DNA of 22,717 bases. Source: a virus. The stretch is taken from positions 1 through 22,717 of the IMG/VR virus record IMGVR_UViG_3300018417_000075. One strand, 5' to 3'. The notes beneath the pieces were generated by a model. It saw only the letters and a program-made list of their open reading frames with translations, made no database searches and was not told where the DNA came from. This document shows positions 857 through 16,439 of this stretch, one piece after another. The stretch's first letter is position 1. Each line of letters begins with the position of its first letter. The translations under genes were made by a program, and so were the position numbers.

Positions 857-2479
857 TTAGTTATCACTACTTTCATACTGTTCATCAACCATTTTGTCAT
901 GCAAAATCTGTTGCGCTAATCCATTGCGTAATGCTCTACGATTCTGTGGAATCTCAACTTCTTGAAACCACTGACCATCAGTATAGAATGATATCTCTTC
1001 AATCTTTTTGTTTTTGTATGAATCAAAATCAATATTGATACCCATAAGAGCAACAATCTCCGCTTGATTTTGACCAGCATCGGTCATTAAATCATCTAAC
1101 TTATTATCAATGGATTCTTGTATACTTTCTGCAACTAATTCTTCAGCATCTTTAACTGAGGTATCTTTGTCTGCTTCTATTAATGCATTTATTCTATCTT
1201 TTATTATTCGTGAAGATAATGTCTCTATCTTATCTTGTCCTATTCCAGAAAACAGTTCTACATCAGATTGCAATGCAGGGTCACTAAACATGTCGTTTAG
1301 ATTAGAACCCATCTGAGTTTCTAGTTCACTATTACCATTCGCCATTGTTTCTGGTGAATCTATAACTGAACCAAATACAGACCCACTATCCATACCATCT
1401 GTAGACTGTGATGAACTGCCATCATTCTGTTGTCCACCGCTACCGTTACTTGCACTAGCGTCTTGCACTTGCCCTGTTAGCGACATTGTTCCACCAGTGC
1501 CTTCAATAGAACTACTGAGTCCAGTTGCATCACCAACACCATTCGTCTGTGAGTTTCCAAGCACACCAATTGCTGACAGTCTGTTAATTGTATCTCTCGC
1601 AGAAGGTCCGTCTTCTTTACTTGGTTCTGAAGTTGCGGCTGACTGTTCAACAATCTTTTCATCAGTCAATGCAACACCAGTCGCCTCTTGTTCTGCTACT
1701 GCGTTTGCTTCTTGTGCAACTTCTACAGCAACACCAGCAACCGCCGCTGCCTGCTCTACGACTTGTTGCGCTTGCTCAACTACATCTACAACTTGTTCTT
1801 GAACACTACCATCATCACTTCCAGAAAAGTCTTCTACAACTTGTTGCACTTGTTCTACAACCACAGGTTCAATAAACGCAGTTAAGTCTGTCCCATCTGC
1901 GTTGTCATTGCCGTCATTACTTGGCGTGCCATCATCAACAGCACTTGCAAGTTGCTCTGCCAGTCTCTCTTCATTAAGTAACACTGCATATGCTTGTGCA
2001 TATCCGGGACATGATTGGTCATACAACGGATTGGTTGTGCATAGCATTTGAAAATACGCTTGCTGATAACCTGGACACGACATGTCATTTAATGGATTTG
2101 AACAGTCAAGTTTAACTGCGCCCACCATATCGAAATAATTCACCATAGTCGCATTCGCATAGTTTGGATTCCACATTGACCATTGCGAACAATTCGAAGC
2201 GCCGTTGGCACCATACACAATAATGTAACCGCCCTGCCCAGTATCCATAGGAAAGCAGAAACTATCATTTGTAGTATCCCCGTCCTGGTAAAGTCCATCT
2301 GACGGGAAATACTGCCAATCTGTTAATATGTAATCTGGATTCGACTGTAAAATTGAATCTTTATAAAAGTCTATATCACTATTAAATGTGTAGTCGTTCC
2401 ATGCGGCGAATGCTTTGCTAGAGGAGAAGCAAAAGCAAAGCACCAGCACCCAAACCAAATAAGAAATCTTTGTTGACAT
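857..2479 (-). CDS. Exported protein with CPGY repeats, function unknown
   Basis: 540 residues. The N-terminus is a classic Sec signal peptide: Lys4, a hydrophobic core at about residues 7-18, and an AFA-A cleavage site near residue 25. The mature N-terminal region (about 26-130) is aromatic-rich and is followed by two copies of a Cys-bearing unit (NPLxDxSCPGYxxAY, about residues 128-165). The centre (about 180-400) is low-complexity: Glu/Val/Ala/Gln-rich helix, then Gly/Ser-rich. The C-terminal 120 residues look like a folded helical domain ending in a basic ALRNGLAQQ segment. No enzyme motif or lipobox was recognised. A good ribosome binding site (GAAGGA) precedes the ATG at 2479, although this start lies inside the upstream gene, overlapping it by 62 bases. 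Similar CPGY-repeat proteins occur in marine T4-like phages (from memory); function unknown. Confidence 0.85.
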   Translation of the reverse strand: MSTKISYLVWVLVLCFCFSSSKAFAAWNDYTFNSDIDFYKDSILQSNPDYILTDWQYFPSDGLYQDGDTTNDSFCFPMDTGQGGYIIVYGANGASNCSQWSMWNPNYANATMVNYFDMVGAVKLDCSNPLNDMSCPGYQQAYFQMLCTTNPLYDQSCPGYAQAYAVLLNEERLAEQLASAVDDGTPSNDGNDNADGTDLTAFIEPVVVEQVQQVVEDFSGSDDGSVQEQVVDVVEQAQQVVEQAAAVAGVAVEVAQEANAVAEQEATGVALTDEKIVEQSAATSEPSKEDGPSARDTINRLSAIGVLGNSQTNGVGDATGLSSSIEGTGGTMSLTGQVQDASASNGSGGQQNDGSSSQSTDGMDSGSVFGSVIDSPETMANGNSELETQMGSNLNDMFSDPALQSDVELFSGIGQDKIETLSSRIIKDRINALIEADKDTSVKDAEELVAESIQESIDNKLDDLMTDAGQNQAEIVALMGINIDFDSYKNKKIEEISFYTDGQWFQEVEIPQNRRALRNGLAQQILHDKMVDEQYESSDN

Positions 2480-3410
2480 TTAGTGGTTCCTTCTTGGTAA
2501 CATTATTAGGGTTTTTTCCGTCTTTAATCGCAGACTGAATATCTGCAATGTACTCTTGTCTTGCTCTGTATTGTTCAGCGTCTGGACGAAGTTCGGGCAT
2601 TAGTTCCCAAGCCGCTTTTGCCTCAACCCCAATGTCACCCATGAATGGGCAAGGTGTTCCAGCCATTTCCATTGCTGAAAATACACGCTCGTCTTGACAC
2701 ATGACTGATACTGCGGCAACTTTCATGCCCATATCATACAGCGTCTTTGACAACTTTAATCTTTCACAATTCATATCCCTAACAGTACTACCACCAGCAA
2801 TACCTAGAATCTGAGTTTGAACAGCACCAGATATACCTGTAGTACACAAGTCAATATTATTTGCGCTTATGTTTGGGGCAATAGCACTAGGTGGAGGTGA
2901 CTTAATCTCTTGCTCAATCTTTGAGGTGTTATTGTTATTGTTATTATTTTGATTTGTGTTATTGCTAGTACTATTCACCGTAGTATCATTAGTGTTACTA
3001 TTAGTGTTAGTATTTGTATTATTAGATGTTATATCTGAATTATTGGTATTTGTGTTATTACTTGTGCTATTAATAGTCGCATTTGAAGTATCATTTGAGG
3101 TATTAATATTTGTATTTGTATTGTTACTTGTAACATTACTTGTATTATTATTTGTGTTTGTTGAAGTACTGGTATTAACATTGGTGTTGTTATTAGTATT
3201 TGTTGCAGTACTAGTATTCACATTAGTGTTAGTATTAGTATTCGTGTTTACATTTGTCGAGGTATTGACATTTGTATTCGTATTGTCTGTTGTGCTATCC
3301 ACAGTTGTTGTGTTAGTGTTGACATTGTTAGTGTTGATATCTTCTGCCGCAGTTATATTAGCAGACATCAAAGACATTACGAAAATTGCCGACATTGTTA
3401 TTCTGTTCAT
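2418..3410 (-). CDS. Exported Asn/Thr-repeat protein with C-terminal anchor
   Basis: 330 residues. A signal peptide (about residues 1-22, ITA-A cleavage) leads into a 139-residue tract made almost only of Asn, Thr, Ser and some Val (about 25-163), containing near-perfect 14-residue tandem copies around residues 64-91. After a Pro-rich hinge (171-180) comes a compact four-Cys domain (about 185-300: Cys at CTTG, DMNCE, VMCQD and TPCPF) and finally a C-terminal hydrophobic run of Gly/Ala/Leu ending in six leucines. The architecture is that of an envelope protein spanning or reaching through the periplasm, with a flexible glycan-like spacer. It resembles a spanin-like layout only loosely; no family was recognised. 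An AAGG site 7 bases before the ATG supports the start. It heads the minus-strand block that continues to the left edge. Confidence 0.85.
   Translation of the reverse strand: MNRITMSAIFVMSLMSANITAAEDINTNNVNTNTTTVDSTTDNTNTNVNTSTNVNTNTNTNTNVNTSTATNTNNNTNVNTSTSTNTNNNTSNVTSNNTNTNINTSNDTSNATINSTSNNTNTNNSDITSNNTNTNTNSNTNDTTVNSTSNNTNQNNNNNNNTSKIEQEIKSPPPSAIAPNISANNIDLCTTGISGAVQTQILGIAGGSTVRDMNCERLKLSKTLYDMGMKVAAVSVMCQDERVFSAMEMAGTPCPFMGDIGVEAKAAWELMPELRPDAEQYRARQEYIADIQSAIKDGKNPNNVTKKEPLNVNKDFLFGLGAGALLLLLL
2922..3338 (-). repeat. Low-complexity Asn/Thr codon repeat tract
   Basis: About 417 bases of AAT/AAC and ACT/ACA codons, seen on the plus strand as TTAGTGTTAGTATT-like runs. It encodes residues 25-163 of the exported protein above. 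A 42-base unit (NVNTSTxTNTNNNT) is present twice in direct succession, with degenerate copies on both sides. The synonymous codons are varied, so it is not a simple microsatellite. Confidence 0.9.
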
Positions 3411-6877: not shown

Positions 6878-9800
6878 TTATCCGTATATCAACGCCGCTT
6901 CTTCTGGCGACAAGTGTTGCGTAGATGAAGATGAAGTTGTTGTGTTGTTTGATGAAGATGCTACAGTAGAACTGTTTGCATTCATAATAATAGGGTTACC
7001 AGAACCAGTGCCTTGCTGTTGTTCTGCGAGTAGTTCTTCATTAGTTGTAGCAATATCTGCTAATGCCGCACCAGAACCGCCAGCACCTGGAACCATTTCA
7101 GCCGCAGGTACACCACTTGCAAGATACTGAGAGTATAGTTCTCTTCTGTCCCCTAGTCCAACACTACCACCATTAACTGCTCTGGATACTGCATCAATGT
7201 CGCCACCCTCAATACCTCTACCAGACACACGGTCTTGATAGTATGCGACTGCGACTTTTGCACCAATCTCTGGGTCATTCACAAGTTCTGGATTTGCAAC
7301 TAGGTCAACACCAATCATGTCTCCGTACTTTTTGTAGTTTGCTTTACCTGTTAATTGGAAAGCGCCCCTACCTCTGTACTTGAATCCATCACCTTCTGTG
7401 TCGTTGCCCATACGTCCACCATAGATAACATCACCAACTGCACTCTGTCCTTGAGATACTAGTCCTTCTGCTTCTTGTTGTGAATTGAAACGTACTTTGT
7501 TTCCGTATGAGTTACCTGCACCATATAGTTCAAATAATCTTTTACCTGAGTAGTTAAAGTTCTCTTCAGTTCTTGTGAATCCAGCAGATTCGTGGTCTGC
7601 TTGCGCCATGATTGCCGCACGTTCTTGTGGGCTAGTAATACCTGAAGCATCCATTTGAGCAACTAGTGCATTTCTACGAGTTCCAGCATCACCTGTAGCA
7701 ACTGCCATTTCAGCATGACTACCTGTTGAACGCATTAGTCCTGCGCCTCTATCTAGTGGCGCAGGCTCTGGACCATCACCCCACCAAGAATCCCACCAAC
7801 CAGAAACACCTTCAACCATGTCACCGATGGCACCACTAATCTCATCACCAACTTCTTGAATTGCTTCGCCTGCTTTGTCAAGTTGGTCACCGACAAATTC
7901 GACTTCATCTTCAAGACCCATTGCCTGGATGCCTGCTTCAACAGCATCAGAAACTGCTTCTTGTCCTGCTTCAACAAACTCACCAGCACGTTCAATTGCT
8001 GGAGCAATTGCGTCCCCAACAACTTCACCAGCGACAGAAAGACCGTCACTGACGGATTCTGCAAGTGCCGCCGCTTTACCTTCGACATACGCCACAGAGT
8101 CAGAAACAGCCTGAGAGATTCCGAATGCTTCATCTAATCCTGAAATCTTATCAGCAAACCAACCCTTTGCACTCTCGAATGCACCTTTCATTACACCAAA
8201 CGCCGCGGCACCTGCATCGGATAGACTATTCCAAGTATCCATAACAGTACTGCTAATAGTCTGCCAATATGATGGGTCTACTTTTGCTTGTAGTGCGGCA
8301 GCCGCATCTTCAAATGCACCATTTGTCGCATCATACTGGGTTTCTAATTGTTCTAGTGTTGCGTACATACTGCCAGAAACTGTGAGACCCTGGTCTTCCA
8401 TACGTTGAATAGTTGCGTTAAGGTCGTTATACTGTCTACCCTTCTCTAGTCGAGTCTGGTTCAGTCTTTCAACTTCTGCCGCTTCTGCCGCATGTTGGTC
8501 GTTCAACAACTGTTGTGATTGAATCACAGCCGCCTGCTGGTCGTACTCTGCCTTACTAATTGCACCACTATCATACAATTGTTGAATTGTAGTCATTGAT
8601 GCAGAAAGTGCGTCTTTTGATGCCGCAATTTTTGCTTGTGATTCTGTAAGTACTGCTTGATATGATGGGGCAATTTGGTCACCGATGAATCCACCAACCA
8701 TATTACCTAGTGCCATACCGAGACCAGCACCCAAAGGACCACCAACGAAAGCACCGACTGTTCCGAGTAGTGCGCCACCGATGGCACCACCCATGTCTTT
8801 ACCTTCAATCTCAGTTGTGATATCATTATCAAGTGCGGCGGCAGCCATGTCATAAACATCTTTTGCAATCATACCACCACCGACTGCAACTGCCGCAATC
8901 GGACCAGCGGCACCTGCTAGTCTGCTAATAACACCTTTCAAACCACCTGAACCGAGTAGAGAACCTGTTAGTCCACCGATTGCTCCTCCAAGTCCACCAG
9001 CGCCAGCGCCCAATAGACTAGTCAGACCGCTTAGTAGACCACCACCTTCTTCTTCTGTGTCTTTCTTGCCACCACCATCAATTTTAATGCCTTCGATAGC
9101 ATCAATCATTTTTTCTTGTTGGCGGACACCTTCTCTGCGATTTTCTTCATCATTTGAATTTGATAATGCATCAACTTTAAATGCTCTATCAATACCAATA
9201 CGAATCTTTTCAAGTTCTTCTGCCTGAAGTTCATTCCAGACTACTAGTTCAGATAGCCCACCCATACTACCAGAATCTGAACCAGACCCCATAGTTGGAC
9301 TAGACTTTGCACTAAGGACTTCTGCTTCTGCTTTAGAATTTTTACTATTTTGTTTTGCCGCGGCAAGAGATTCTAGGCGCTCAAGTGACTCTTCAGCCAT
9401 TGCTTTTTTTCTAGCCTGCTTCTCTTCTTTCATTTGCTTGCGTTTATCTAACACATATTTTGTCGCAAACATAACGGCAGGACTATTGCCTGCAAGACCA
9501 CCAACAACAGAAGTAATATCTACTGCGTTTTGTGATATAGTTTCTTGAATTTTCCCTAATATCTTATTCTGAGTTTTACTGTTTATCTGCTTCTTTGCAA
9601 CATCCGCCGCAGATAATAGAATCTGTCTATCTTTTTCTGCAATATCAGTTTGGGCTTTAAGAACATTTTCGATGTCCTTAATACCCTGCAAACTTTCTTT
9701 TAGTTGACTTGCACTTAACTTACCAGAAGCACTGATGGTGGATTTAAGAGCATCCATGTACTGCTGGTTTTCAGTACCGACCTGTTTCCCAAGACTATCC

Positions 9801-9916
9801 ATACGAGAAAGCATATCTTTAGTGCGCTTCTCGGACTCTGATGCGAATTGTTTAAAGTTATCGTCTCTGAGTTTATTGATTGATGCACTCAAAGCGTCAT
9901 TGGAATTCATAGCCAT
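6878..9916 (-). CDS. Tail tape-measure protein with GH19 muralytic domain
   Basis: 1012 residues. Order: helical, coiled-coil N-terminal part (about 10-280, Lys/Glu-rich around 155-200); a Gly/Ala-rich hydrophobic stretch with several potential membrane helices (about 293-412); a second long helical part (about 420-705); a GH19 glycoside hydrolase domain (about 745-935); and an Asn/Ser/Thr-rich tail. The GH19 domain shows HESAGF with the likely catalytic acid E776, a second Glu in RTEEN (784/785), and the YGGRMGN...GFKYRGRGAFQLTG signature (about 832-856) typical of phage GH19 lysozymes. The helical body and its place right after two chaperone-like ORFs argue for a tape measure (gp29 role), with the enzyme opening peptidoglycan during DNA entry. 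GAGAG precedes the ATG. Confidence 0.85.
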   Translation of the reverse strand: MAMNSNDALSASINKLRDDNFKQFASESEKRTKDMLSRMDSLGKQVGTENQQYMDALKSTISASGKLSASQLKESLQGIKDIENVLKAQTDIAEKDRQILLSAADVAKKQINSKTQNKILGKIQETISQNAVDITSVVGGLAGNSPAVMFATKYVLDKRKQMKEEKQARKKAMAEESLERLESLAAAKQNSKNSKAEAEVLSAKSSPTMGSGSDSGSMGGLSELVVWNELQAEELEKIRIGIDRAFKVDALSNSNDEENRREGVRQQEKMIDAIEGIKIDGGGKKDTEEEGGGLLSGLTSLLGAGAGGLGGAIGGLTGSLLGSGGLKGVISRLAGAAGPIAAVAVGGGMIAKDVYDMAAAALDNDITTEIEGKDMGGAIGGALLGTVGAFVGGPLGAGLGMALGNMVGGFIGDQIAPSYQAVLTESQAKIAASKDALSASMTTIQQLYDSGAISKAEYDQQAAVIQSQQLLNDQHAAEAAEVERLNQTRLEKGRQYNDLNATIQRMEDQGLTVSGSMYATLEQLETQYDATNGAFEDAAAALQAKVDPSYWQTISSTVMDTWNSLSDAGAAAFGVMKGAFESAKGWFADKISGLDEAFGISQAVSDSVAYVEGKAAALAESVSDGLSVAGEVVGDAIAPAIERAGEFVEAGQEAVSDAVEAGIQAMGLEDEVEFVGDQLDKAGEAIQEVGDEISGAIGDMVEGVSGWWDSWWGDGPEPAPLDRGAGLMRSTGSHAEMAVATGDAGTRRNALVAQMDASGITSPQERAAIMAQADHESAGFTRTEENFNYSGKRLFELYGAGNSYGNKVRFNSQQEAEGLVSQGQSAVGDVIYGGRMGNDTEGDGFKYRGRGAFQLTGKANYKKYGDMIGVDLVANPELVNDPEIGAKVAVAYYQDRVSGRGIEGGDIDAVSRAVNGGSVGLGDRRELYSQYLASGVPAAEMVPGAGGSGAALADIATTNEELLAEQQQGTGSGNPIIMNANSSTVASSSNNTTTSSSSTQHLSPEEAALIYG

Positions 9917-9935: not shown

Positions 9936-10124
9936 TTATTTTCTTTTTGCATTCCGCTCTCGAATTCTATCATTTTGTTCTTGTACATAATTTACCAGCA
10001 TACCCACATACACTTCTCTTTCCCAAGGCATCATATTTTCAATTTCAGTTAGAGAGTATTTGTGATGCTGAACCATAGCAAAATTCGTTTCGTATAAGTT
10101 TTTCAACTTATTATGGTCCAGCAT
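9936..10124 (-). CDS. Small tail-assembly ORF, likely -1 frameshift extension of gp26
   Basis: 62 codons from an ATG that overlaps the gp26 stop as TAATG. The product is helical and charged, with no known motif; it has the position of T4 gp51 (hub assembly) but is far shorter than gp51 (249 residues). The only purine-rich site (GGAAGG) lies about 25 bases upstream of the ATG, too far for normal initiation, so it is translated either by coupling to the gp26 stop or as the C-terminal extension of gp26 through the slippery site at 10130-10136. It stands directly before the tape-measure gene, as lambda gpT stands before gpH. Confidence 0.75.
   Translation of the reverse strand: MLDHNKLKNLYETNFAMVQHHKYSLTEIENMMPWEREVYVGMLVNYVQEQNDRIRERNAKRK
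10094..10111 (-). other. GNRA-capped hairpin 3' of the slippery site
   Basis: On the mRNA strand ATAAGTT-GAAA-AACTTAT forms a 7-bp stem with a GAAA tetraloop, starting 18 bases after the slippery heptamer. It could act as a weak frameshift stimulator, though the spacer is longer than the usual 5-9 bases and the stem is AT-rich. Confidence 0.35.
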
Positions 10125-10849
10125 TATCCGAAAAAACTTGATAGCCCTTCCACCTCATGTACAATTACATCCTGACACGTTTCACACTTATGCTTAACTG
10201 TCTTATGCAGTTTAGGAATTTCAGAAATAAATTTTTGTATCAATTGGAACTGTTCACTATTCAAATTATCTAAGAATTCTAAAAGTTCTTCTTCGCTACT
10301 ATTTTTTGCCGGGAAGATATCATCACCATCAAAGATAACATCAATGCATTTTGCAATTGTATGTAAAGTTCTCTCAACTTTCCCGCCACCTTCTTTAGAA
10401 ATATCAATCGTCTCTTTAATTGTAGGATATCTCATCTTCATACCAATGTCATCAGTCAACTGAATCACTGGAGGTTTAATCTGCCCTAGCATTTCGACTT
10501 CAGCCAAATCAACTTCAACTGACATAACTGCTTTACACTGAACACCTTTTGAGTTCATCCCATCCTTGTGTCTAAATCGCAATGTAGTCTTTTCACCGAT
10601 ACTGCGTCTACGAATTTGTAGAAACAACCACTCAGTATCAAACGATGCTAATTTGTCAATGTCAACTTCAGGTACACAGTTTTGTATAATTTGAAGTGTT
10701 GCATTATGAATGTTTTCTTCTTCACCGCTCTCTAAAGCCATAAGTAGAATTTTTTCTTCTTTAACTAAGAAGGGTCTGTATGAAACTGTCTTTCCAGTTG
10801 TTGGGATTTCAGTTGTATACAGTGGCAAATCAATTTTAGGTAACGCCAT
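10124..10849 (-). CDS. 26: gp26-like baseplate hub assembly protein
   Basis: 241 residues (T4 gp26 has 208). The sequence matches the pattern of the T4 gp26 baseplate protein family: an N-terminal LPLYTTEIPTTG strand and SYRPFLVKEEKILLMAL segment (about residues 7-40), a conserved FLQIRRRSIGE helix (about 75-85), a middle beta region and a helical end with a CxxC pair in KHKCETCQD (about 222-230). gp26 works in assembling the central hub and is thought to act as a chaperone rather than staying in the virion. GGAG precedes the ATG at 10849. Its last codons contain the heptamer T_TTT_TTC, and its stop overlaps the next ATG. Confidence 0.72.
   Translation of the reverse strand: MALPKIDLPLYTTEIPTTGKTVSYRPFLVKEEKILLMALESGEEENIHNATLQIIQNCVPEVDIDKLASFDTEWLFLQIRRRSIGEKTTLRFRHKDGMNSKGVQCKAVMSVEVDLAEVEMLGQIKPPVIQLTDDIGMKMRYPTIKETIDISKEGGGKVERTLHTIAKCIDVIFDGDDIFPAKNSSEEELLEFLDNLNSEQFQLIQKFISEIPKLHKTVKHKCETCQDVIVHEVEGLSSFFG
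10130..10136 (-). promoter_or_regulatory. Putative -1 ribosomal frameshift site T_TTT_TTC
   Basis: Read on the minus strand in the gp26 frame, the bases are T (10136), TTT (10135-10133), TTC (10132-10130), a textbook X_XXY_YYZ heptamer. One Gly codon later comes the gp26 stop. The -1 frame continues CGG-ATA-ATG straight into the 62-codon ORF. Confidence 0.6.
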
Positions 10850-10893: not shown

Positions 10894-11517
10894 TTAGAAA
10901 CGTAAAGGGATTCTTATGTTTACAGGACCGACCTTAATAGAGATTCCACCACCAAGTAAACCACCAAGGGCTGATGAGATTCCTCCACCAAAAGTCGGGC
11001 TTCCACCAGCCTCAGTTCTTGTATATGCGAATGTTACTGAGAATGTCGCAATCTCTTCTGCTCCGTAAGACAAACTAATGTCTCCGACATTTTCGGGGAA
11101 TGCATCATATAGTGCTTGCTCATGAGTAACTTCACCTAGCGTGTTCATAGTTTTAATTTTAACTAGACCCTTGTAGTCGTCAGGGTAGCCGACATAGCCT
11201 GTCATCGGGTCGTGAATTTTATTCTGCCACTCCTGAAAAAATCTCCACAACTCCATATTACCATCAGCCATGAATGTAGCACTACAGTCGTTTGGAATAG
11301 AGTTGTATGCTTGTTTCATTGTAGGCAATGAACCGTATTTGACTTCAGACGTTGAAATGTTTCTGCCTGGCAGAGATACGTCTTTAACAAATGTGTGGGC
11401 ACTAATGTTGCCTCGAGGAACAGCAAGACCTGCAGGAGGATACATCTCAACCATATAATGAGAAGACTTTTGAAGTCCCATTGAACCAACTGATGATTTA
11501 AAGTTATCTATGTCCAT
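10894..11517 (-). CDS. 54: gp54/gp19-type tail tube initiator or tube protein
   Basis: 207 residues. The beta-rich sequence follows the tail-tube fold shared by T4 gp19 and gp54: an N-terminal strand ending in the LPGRNIS loop (about 50-56), a small helix in the middle (MELWRFFQEWQNKI, about 88-101), strands around GLVKIKTM, and the C-terminal FPENVGDISLSYGAEEIATFSVTFAYTR block (about 141-168) typical of the family. The last 35 residues are Gly-rich. In T4, gp54 starts tube polymerisation on top of the gp48-capped hub. Company with gp26, gp4 and the divergent gp48 gene favours gp54; with neither sheath nor tube genes in view, gp19 cannot be ruled out. AGGATG precedes the start. Confidence 0.7.
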   Translation of the reverse strand: MDIDNFKSSVGSMGLQKSSHYMVEMYPPAGLAVPRGNISAHTFVKDVSLPGRNISTSEVKYGSLPTMKQAYNSIPNDCSATFMADGNMELWRFFQEWQNKIHDPMTGYVGYPDDYKGLVKIKTMNTLGEVTHEQALYDAFPENVGDISLSYGAEEIATFSVTFAYTRTEAGGSPTFGGGISSALGGLLGGGISIKVGPVNIRIPLRF

Positions 11518-15581: not shown

Positions 15582-15596
15582 AGTTAGGAGAAAATG

Positions 15597-16439
15597 ATGG
15601 AACTTAGTCTAGGCGAGTGGTTGAATTCACAATCACAAGAAACACAAATGCTCAACGAAAAGCAGATTCTTTTTAATGGCGGAAAAAAATACGGACAGAT
15701 TGTATTCCTTGCTGGTGGCGCTGGTTCAGGTAAAGGCTTTGCTATTAAGAACTTTCTGCAAGGAAACGACTTTAAGATTCGTGACGTTGACGAATGGAAA
15801 CTTGCGTTTATGAAACTTAATGATACTACAGGTAGATTCCCAGAACTATCTGGTCTGAACTTGCGTAATCCTAAAGACGTATTCAAATTGCATATGGCAG
15901 TTAAAGACGCAGGAATTAAAGATAAGACTCTTGACGGACTTTTGTCTGATGTATCACAAGATAGACTGCCAAATATTATTTTTGATATTACTCTAAAAGA
16001 ACTTGGTGACATTACAGAAGTTCTACCAAGACTACAAGCAGTTGGCTATGACGCAAAAAATATTCACATTGTTTGGGTGTTGACTAACTATCGTGTTGCA
16101 GTAACTAACAATGCTGGACGTGACCGTGTAGTACCAGAAGACATTCTTTTGAAGACCCACGAAGGTGCGGCAAAAACAATGTATCAAATTGTTGCGGGTT
16201 CTATTCCATCAGGCATTGATGGTAAAGTTGCAGTCATTCTAAATAATAGAGAGAACACAGTATTCTTTGATAGACCTAACTCTACAGGAGACAAAGTAAT
16301 TAAAGACTTTACATATCTTACTATTAAGCAAGAAGGTAAATCGCCTGTAAAACGCAAAGAAGTACAGCAACAAGTATTTGATTGGATTAAAGATAATATT
16401 CCAAAAACTAAAGAGACTAAAGAACTCTTCGGAAACTGA
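15597..16439 (+). CDS. P-loop kinase-like protein inside baseplate operon
   Basis: 280 residues from the second of two adjacent ATGs; AGGAG ends 6 bases before 15597 but only 3 before 15594, so the second ATG is preferred. Strand-P-loop at residues 34-47: IVFLAGGAGSGKG, i.e. GxxxxGK followed by Gly rather than Ser/Thr. RDVDEW (about 57-62) and PNIIFDITLKELGDI resemble the second half of zeta-toxin/polynucleotide-kinase-type NMP kinases, and the Arg in NAGRDRV could be a lid residue. Likely an ATP-dependent kinase or ATPase, substrate unknown. It is embedded among structural genes 16 bases after the hub gene, which is unexpected for an enzyme and hints at a structural, assembly or toxin-related role. 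Family naming is tentative. Confidence 0.65.
   Translation: MELSLGEWLNSQSQETQMLNEKQILFNGGKKYGQIVFLAGGAGSGKGFAIKNFLQGNDFKIRDVDEWKLAFMKLNDTTGRFPELSGLNLRNPKDVFKLHMAVKDAGIKDKTLDGLLSDVSQDRLPNIIFDITLKELGDITEVLPRLQAVGYDAKNIHIVWVLTNYRVAVTNNAGRDRVVPEDILLKTHEGAAKTMYQIVAGSIPSGIDGKVAVILNNRENTVFFDRPNSTGDKVIKDFTYLTIKQEGKSPVKRKEVQQQVFDWIKDNIPKTKETKELFGN

Follow-up and report, generated by a model that had tools for sequence, protein, structure and literature searches.

A probable −1 frameshift at the end of gene 26 in a T4-like phage fragment and the pair of tail assembly chaperones it would yield

Results

Gene order at the locus

The window analyzed here is the whole 22,717-nt stretch of the viral record IMGVR_UViG_3300018417_000075, from a marine T4-like phage, and a search of this 22.7-kb fragment gave a single gp26-like match. 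It lies on the minus strand among the following tail genes.

10894-11517, minus strand: tail tube protein, immediately preceding gp26 (phrog_45, E 1.1e-38)
10124-10849, minus strand: gp26, the putative short tail assembly chaperone (0-frame product of 241 aa; ORF, PF12322, phrog_150)
9936-10124, minus strand: 62-codon ORF (the small ORF), starting inside a UAAUG overlap
9936-10136, minus strand: −1 frame extension, the C-terminal domain of the predicted long product (FFRIMLDHNKL...; phrog_634 and the C-terminus of phrog_150)
6878-9916, minus strand: tape measure-like protein with a GH19 domain, directly downstream of the small ORF (phrog_181, E 1.4e-45; Glyco_hydro_19, E 8.5e-9)

The order on the minus strand is tail tube, gp26, small ORF and tape measure-like gene, which places the putative chaperone pair between the tube and the tape measure. 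gp26 matches PF12322 with an E-value of 9.5e-55 and 186 bits, against a gathering cut-off of 24.5, and phrog_150 (baseplate hub, gp26) with an E-value of 3e-62. The small ORF has hits to phrog_634 (“baseplate hub assembly catalyst”, gp51; E 3.5e-27) and, at E 8.9e-5, to the C-terminal part of phrog_150; this second hit implies that some phages have both parts as one chain. The product of 6878-9916 is called tape measure-like from its size and position. Its GH19 domain (PF00182; phrog_181 is an endolysin family) sits toward the C-terminus.

The probable slip site

Two short features mark the junction between gp26 and the small ORF.

10130-10136, minus strand: slippery heptamer T_TTT_TTC, in phase with gp26 (from sequence)
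10124-10126, minus strand: TAA stop of gp26, which shares bases with the small-ORF AUG (UAAUG; from sequence)

The minus strand reads GTG GAA GGG CTA TCA AGT TTT TTC GGA TAA TG CTG GAC CAT across this region. The initial annotation had placed an in-phase heptamer one Gly codon ahead of the gp26 stop, and AGT TTT TTC GGA TAA agrees with this. It had further described a stop-free −1 frame running into the 62-codon ORF, which we recover as TTT TTT CGG ATA ATG CTG, open to position 9936. In the predicted −1 transframe product, the junction spans ...SSFFRIMLDHNK. As in a canonical −1 frameshift site, an in-phase X_XXY_YYZ motif stands near the end of the upstream ORF. Past the heptamer, the −1 frame continues without a stop into coding sequence that is conserved, also in relatives that have no start codon for the domain.

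Conservation of the heptamer

The junction was compared among 80 loci from viral contigs and additional ones from further scans and named phages, and dereplication at 80% protein identity left 88 relatives. In the first set, T TTT TTY was found at or near the gp26 end in every locus with an intact junction, and beyond the stop the −1 frame of these loci stays open over some 56-66 codons or to the end of the contig. Among the dereplicated relatives, 86 of 88 carry the in-phase heptamer at the gp26 end, as TTTTTTC (57), TTTTTTT (28) or TTTTTTA (1). The codon before the Phe pair is AGT, GAT, TCT, AAT, GGT, GCT or CGT in these 86 relatives, i.e., the preceding residue varies over six amino acids (S, D, N, G, A, R) with a wobble base of T throughout. 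The heptamer Phe codon is TTT in 86/86 with T always before it, whereas two other invariant Phe codons of gp26 are TTT in 52-54% and can follow any base. The check proposed in the initial annotation, whether related phages keep the heptamer when synonymous alternatives exist, therefore has a positive outcome: it is kept in 86/88, compared with a TTT usage of about half at other conserved Phe positions. Elsewhere in the 86 gp26 genes an in-phase T_TTT_TT occurs 14 times.

Given the amino acids, the chance of this pattern is about 10^-21 for the wobble T times 10^-15 for TTT as the first Phe codon, i.e., 10^-36 if the sequences were independent, which overstates the case as the relatives share ancestry; at below 80% identity, however, wobble positions are largely free. 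In phage XG4 the Phe has changed to Leu, yet T TTT TTA is kept. The T run at the slip site is 6 T here and up to 8 in some relatives. A Moby relative (L182) with one T fewer enters the +1 frame and has no in-frame fusion; this is probably a homopolymer miscall, and the locus was set aside.

Elements flanking the heptamer

The heptamer is flanked by a short SD-like element upstream and by a predicted RNA fold downstream.

10145-10150, minus strand: GAAGGG, an SD-like element 8 nt before the heptamer and probable frameshift stimulator (from sequence and anti-SD pairing in relatives)
10065-10124, minus strand: predicted stimulatory RNA structure with three arms (from folding and shuffles)
10124-10112 / 10077-10065, minus strand: 13-bp outer stem of the predicted fold, from 5 nt after the heptamer
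10111-10094, minus strand: 7-bp GAAA-capped hairpin, inner arm of the predicted fold
10092-10079, minus strand: 5-bp hairpin, third arm of the predicted fold

Across the 86 relatives, anti-SD pairing peaks 15-17 nt before the start of the heptamer, with a mean of -5.8 kcal/mol against a background of +0.26 kcal/mol. Synonymous codon choice at the element is biased in the same relatives, with GAG for 36 of 62 Glu codons (p=2e-8) and GGA or GGG for 57 of 81 Gly codons (p=6e-10).

The downstream region of the window folds at -22.7 kcal/mol compared with -7.7 +/- 2.5 kcal/mol for shuffled sequences (z -5.97), and 0/200 shuffles were as good. By z-score it is the most significant fold among 85 relatives (z -6.6 in that comparison). 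Four close relatives have 96% of cells paired and 2 two-sided changes, which is suggestive, though the sequences are few. A downstream fold with z < -2 was found in 37/85 relatives, against 24/262 and 10/85 in the controls. A consensus RNA structure common to all relatives was not found, as the folds differ by clade and are weak in several clades. The predicted stem of the window begins at +5 nt, within the approximately 5-9 nt spacing of canonical −1 frameshift sites. The initial annotation had singled out the 7-bp GAAA-capped hairpin; this hairpin exists, 18 nt past the heptamer, but the likely functional structure is the larger fold built on the 13-bp stem, which encloses it.

Start codons of the small ORF

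The first ATG of the −1 frame lies at residue 11 or later, i.e., at or inside the conserved core, in 52/86 relatives, and S13, Aswh_1, D479 and Melnitz are examples where it falls inside the core. No ATG was found farther upstream in the −1 frame in any representative. As the small ORF has no ATG before the core in these 52 relatives, a frameshift is the simplest route to the whole domain. Some of the 52 have an earlier GTG or TTG. In the records of S13, Aswh_1 and Aeh1, no gene is annotated over the C-terminal domain. In the other 34/86 relatives, this window included, the −1 frame has an ATG at residues 4-6.

No SD-like signal was found near the small-ORF start across the relatives. Nor does the window have an SD-like site at a usable distance from the AUG, which bears out the earlier remark that the small ORF lacks a good ribosome binding site. 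The AUG of the window lies within the predicted 13-bp stem. Since it is part of the UAAUG overlap, a certain amount of free C-terminal domain could also arise by coupled re-initiation.

Comparison with gp26 and gp51 of T4

In phage T4, gp26 and gp51 are paralogs that both belong to PF12322 (E 8.8e-64 and 3.9e-52). T4 gp51 has an extra C-terminal domain of the phrog_634 type, while T4 gp26 consists of PF12322 alone, and T4 thus has the same family and the same two architectures as the window (PF12322, and PF12322 with the phrog_634 domain). The relatedness of T4 gp26/gp51 to G/T chaperones suggested in the initial annotation is supported by these architectures. A profile built from in-silico transframe sequences aligns with T4-type gp51 (E 1e-17 for 44RR, E 9e-10 for T4), and no gap falls at the slip junction, whereas the alignment of the profile to T4 gp26 ends at Phe-Phe plus two residues.

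In T4 the two proteins come from separate genes on opposite strands, as opposed to one gene and a frameshift in the window. Gene 26 of T4 and its near relatives has the Phe-Phe (in ..EFF..) as a non-slippery TTC TTT or has lost it, and the heptamer was found in none of them; the slip site is therefore absent where a separate long gene exists. In Enterobacter phage EC-F2 (L215, 2501-3794), a long gp51-like gene neighbors a short gp26-like gene on the same strand. This differs from the divergent T4 genes and may be close to the original arrangement after duplication.

Lineages without the heptamer

Frameshifting at T_TTT_TTY is not universal, as a few lineages lack the heptamer. Cygsa01 (L091, 3700-3896) and the Vibrio phages K369/D506 (L086/L214) have gp26 and a small −1-frame ORF with a UAAUG overlap and no heptamer, and have possibly switched from frameshifting to re-initiation. 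In Ackermannviridae the gp26 end reads GAA/GAG ATT TTC ATT TAA without T_TTT_TTY (Vi01, L210, 2250-2470; Menlow, L216; LIMEstone1, L211). Here, too, the −1 frame encodes the conserved C-terminal domain, and Vi01 and Menlow have no ATG at the junction. The same gene order without a heptamer and with an own start for the small ORF, which the initial annotation had named as evidence against frameshifting, is hence found in a small number of distant lineages (Cygsa01, K369), whereas this phage and its near relatives do not show it.

Predicted fold of gp26

The AlphaFold2 model of gp26 has a pLDDT of 94.3. Residues 1-94 of the model match 3fgx (Z 7.8), the HK97 tail assembly chaperone (TAC) 2ob9 (Z 7.2), YqbN 3klu (Z 7.1) and 5ir0 (Z 5.5), with the next match listed at 2.8; by the standard of the fold-comparison tool itself, Z 7-8 is moderate. 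Foldseek gave no match below E 0.001 for the gp26 model and no TAC match for the gp51-type model, for which another structure listing was led by unrelated C1QBP entries. The fold claim is thus drawn from the gp26 model. NCBIfam had no model for these proteins. The match to the HK97 TAC fold and the gene position together support a G/GT-type tail assembly chaperone pair, and the G/GT-type system proposed in the initial annotation finds backing in the position between tail tube and tape measure and in this match. By family and fold, a chaperone role of the gp26 pair is likely.

Discussion

Proposed mechanism

From the sequence, its conservation, the colinearity with gp51 and the fold match, we infer frameshifting, its efficiency and a chaperone role. 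It is very probable that a −1 frameshift yields a short and a long tail assembly chaperone of the G/GT type at this locus. Most ribosomes would terminate at TAA and give the 241-aa short form, while some would slip back one base on U_UUU_UUC into the −1 frame, presumably with help from the upstream SD-like GAAGGG and from the stable RNA fold that begins 5 nt past the heptamer. The long form would be about 304 aa, consisting of gp26 through Phe-Phe, then Arg-Ile-Met-Leu..., and the C-terminal domain. If they work like lambda G and GT, the short and long forms probably act together during assembly by coating or guiding the tape measure protein and tail tube. The joining of gp26 to the small ORF put forward in the initial annotation gains from the conserved heptamer, the start-less relatives, the stimulator-like elements on both sides and the colinearity with gp51.

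Alternative explanations

The small ORF might instead be a gene in its own right that relies on termination-reinitiation at UAAUG, with an incidental T run and two separate chains as products. UAAUG or a similar overlap is indeed present in the window, KVP40, Moby, Cr30 and XG4, 34/86 relatives have a potential start early in the −1 frame (ATG at positions 4-6), and many records annotate a separate gp51; the overlap is also kept in Cygsa01 and K369, which lack the heptamer. However, in 52/86 relatives the conserved core is not preceded by an ATG, the small-ORF start has no SD-like signal across relatives, and the AUG of the window is inside the 13-bp stem. Independent translation would also leave the invariant heptamer and its wobble T unexplained, and in T4-type gp51 both domains are in one chain that is colinear across the slip site. 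We therefore regard re-initiation as the main route to the domain as very improbable.

The T run could also act through RNA polymerase slippage, which would produce mRNAs one base longer or shorter and from these a fused protein, or it could be kept solely for a Phe-Phe near the C-terminus in AT-rich genomes, without any frameshift. Slippage by the polymerase gains from the homopolymer of 6 T, reaching 8 in some relatives, but six T are generally considered short for productive transcriptional slippage. In addition, the X_XXY_YYZ phase is held, with C in the last position in 57/86, and the accompanying SD-like element and downstream folds are as expected of ribosomal frameshifting, which makes the transcriptional route even less probable than re-initiation. 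A need for Phe-Phe would agree with the near-invariant gp26 alignment at this point and with the preference of these genomes for TTT. Yet TTT is found in 86/86 here against 52-54% at other invariant Phe codons, the wobble T persists over six amino acids, T4-type gp26 encodes its Phe-Phe as TTC TTT, and XG4 retained T TTT TTA after losing the Phe to Leu; this explanation has hardly any probability left. A chance pattern or base composition was ruled out by comparison with the remaining invariant Phe codons and with T4-type gp26.

Relation to known systems

The ribosomal −1 frameshift proposed here resembles established systems. In E. coli dnaX, an A_AAA_AAG heptamer has an SD-like element some 8-10 nt before it and a stem after it, and the frameshift makes a shorter product. 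The window shares the SD-like element and the downstream stem with dnaX, whereas its frameshift would make a longer product. Tail assembly chaperones with a −1 frameshift were reportedly described for lambda G/GT and the HK97 type by Xu, Hendrix and Duda in 2004. The window is like these in the position between tube and tape measure, in the slip site that ends the first ORF and in the predicted short and long products; it differs in that gp26 is about 240 aa (PF12322), longer than the HK97 TAC, and in that the heptamer is U_UUU_UUY.

For T4 itself, gp26 and gp51 are listed as hub assembly chaperones, where gp51 is required and absent from the particle (PMC3004832). According to papers citing it, the work of Vladimirov, Gautam and Davidson (Virology 2022) describes T4-like phages that encode the short TAC and a fused long TAC in separate genes (PMC10885494), as well as poly-T frameshift signals in the TAC genes of T4-like phages (PMC12846349). 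TAC genes of T4-like phages, Vandenendeviridae and Andersonviridae have a T run near the end of the short ORF and a continuous −1 frame to the tape measure, as here, but the motif of Vandenendeviridae and Andersonviridae, a different phage branch, is GTTTTT and not T_TTT_TTY (PMC12846349).

As far as these citing papers convey it, both the −1 mechanism and the chaperone identity of T4 gp26/gp51 are already published (Vladimirov et al., 2022). Given the T4 assignment and the poly-T signals reported there, the mechanism is not new here. What we worked out are the start-less relatives, the SD-like element, the large fold, the codon tests and the T4 codon control, which may overlap with that study beyond what its citing papers relay. 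The literature searched, which covers Vladimirov et al. (2022) through citing papers, held no report on this exact phage group.

In public records of cyanophages and other T4-like phages, the C-terminal domain is annotated as a gp51 of its own, as a truncated ORF or not at all. Most likely, the domain is the tail end of a frameshift product in the phages studied here. The slip site offers a testable target and a rule for re-annotation, and a single slippery gene here and two paralogous genes in T4 appear as two solutions to one need.

A more speculative reading, which we think improbable, is that the downstream fold acts as a two-way switch that pauses the ribosome for the −1 slip and at the same time conceals the small-ORF AUG. 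If so, only ribosomes that had just unwound the fold in completing gp26 would make free C-terminal domain, if any is made, and one message would give three products in set ratios.

Other genes in the window

A class 3 lipase gene (1-555 of the window) adjoins a gene for a small membrane-like protein with an EF-hand-like motif at 500-835 (EF-hand_5, E 4.7e-5, below the cut-off). Two secreted-looking proteins are encoded at 2418-3410 and 857-2479; one has a long Asn/Thr-rich low-complexity stretch and matches only phrog_20531 (unknown function), and the other has no family match. At 15594-16439, a Zeta-toxin-like kinase domain is found among baseplate genes (PF06414, E 1.8e-6; phrog_5268, unknown function, E 3e-57).
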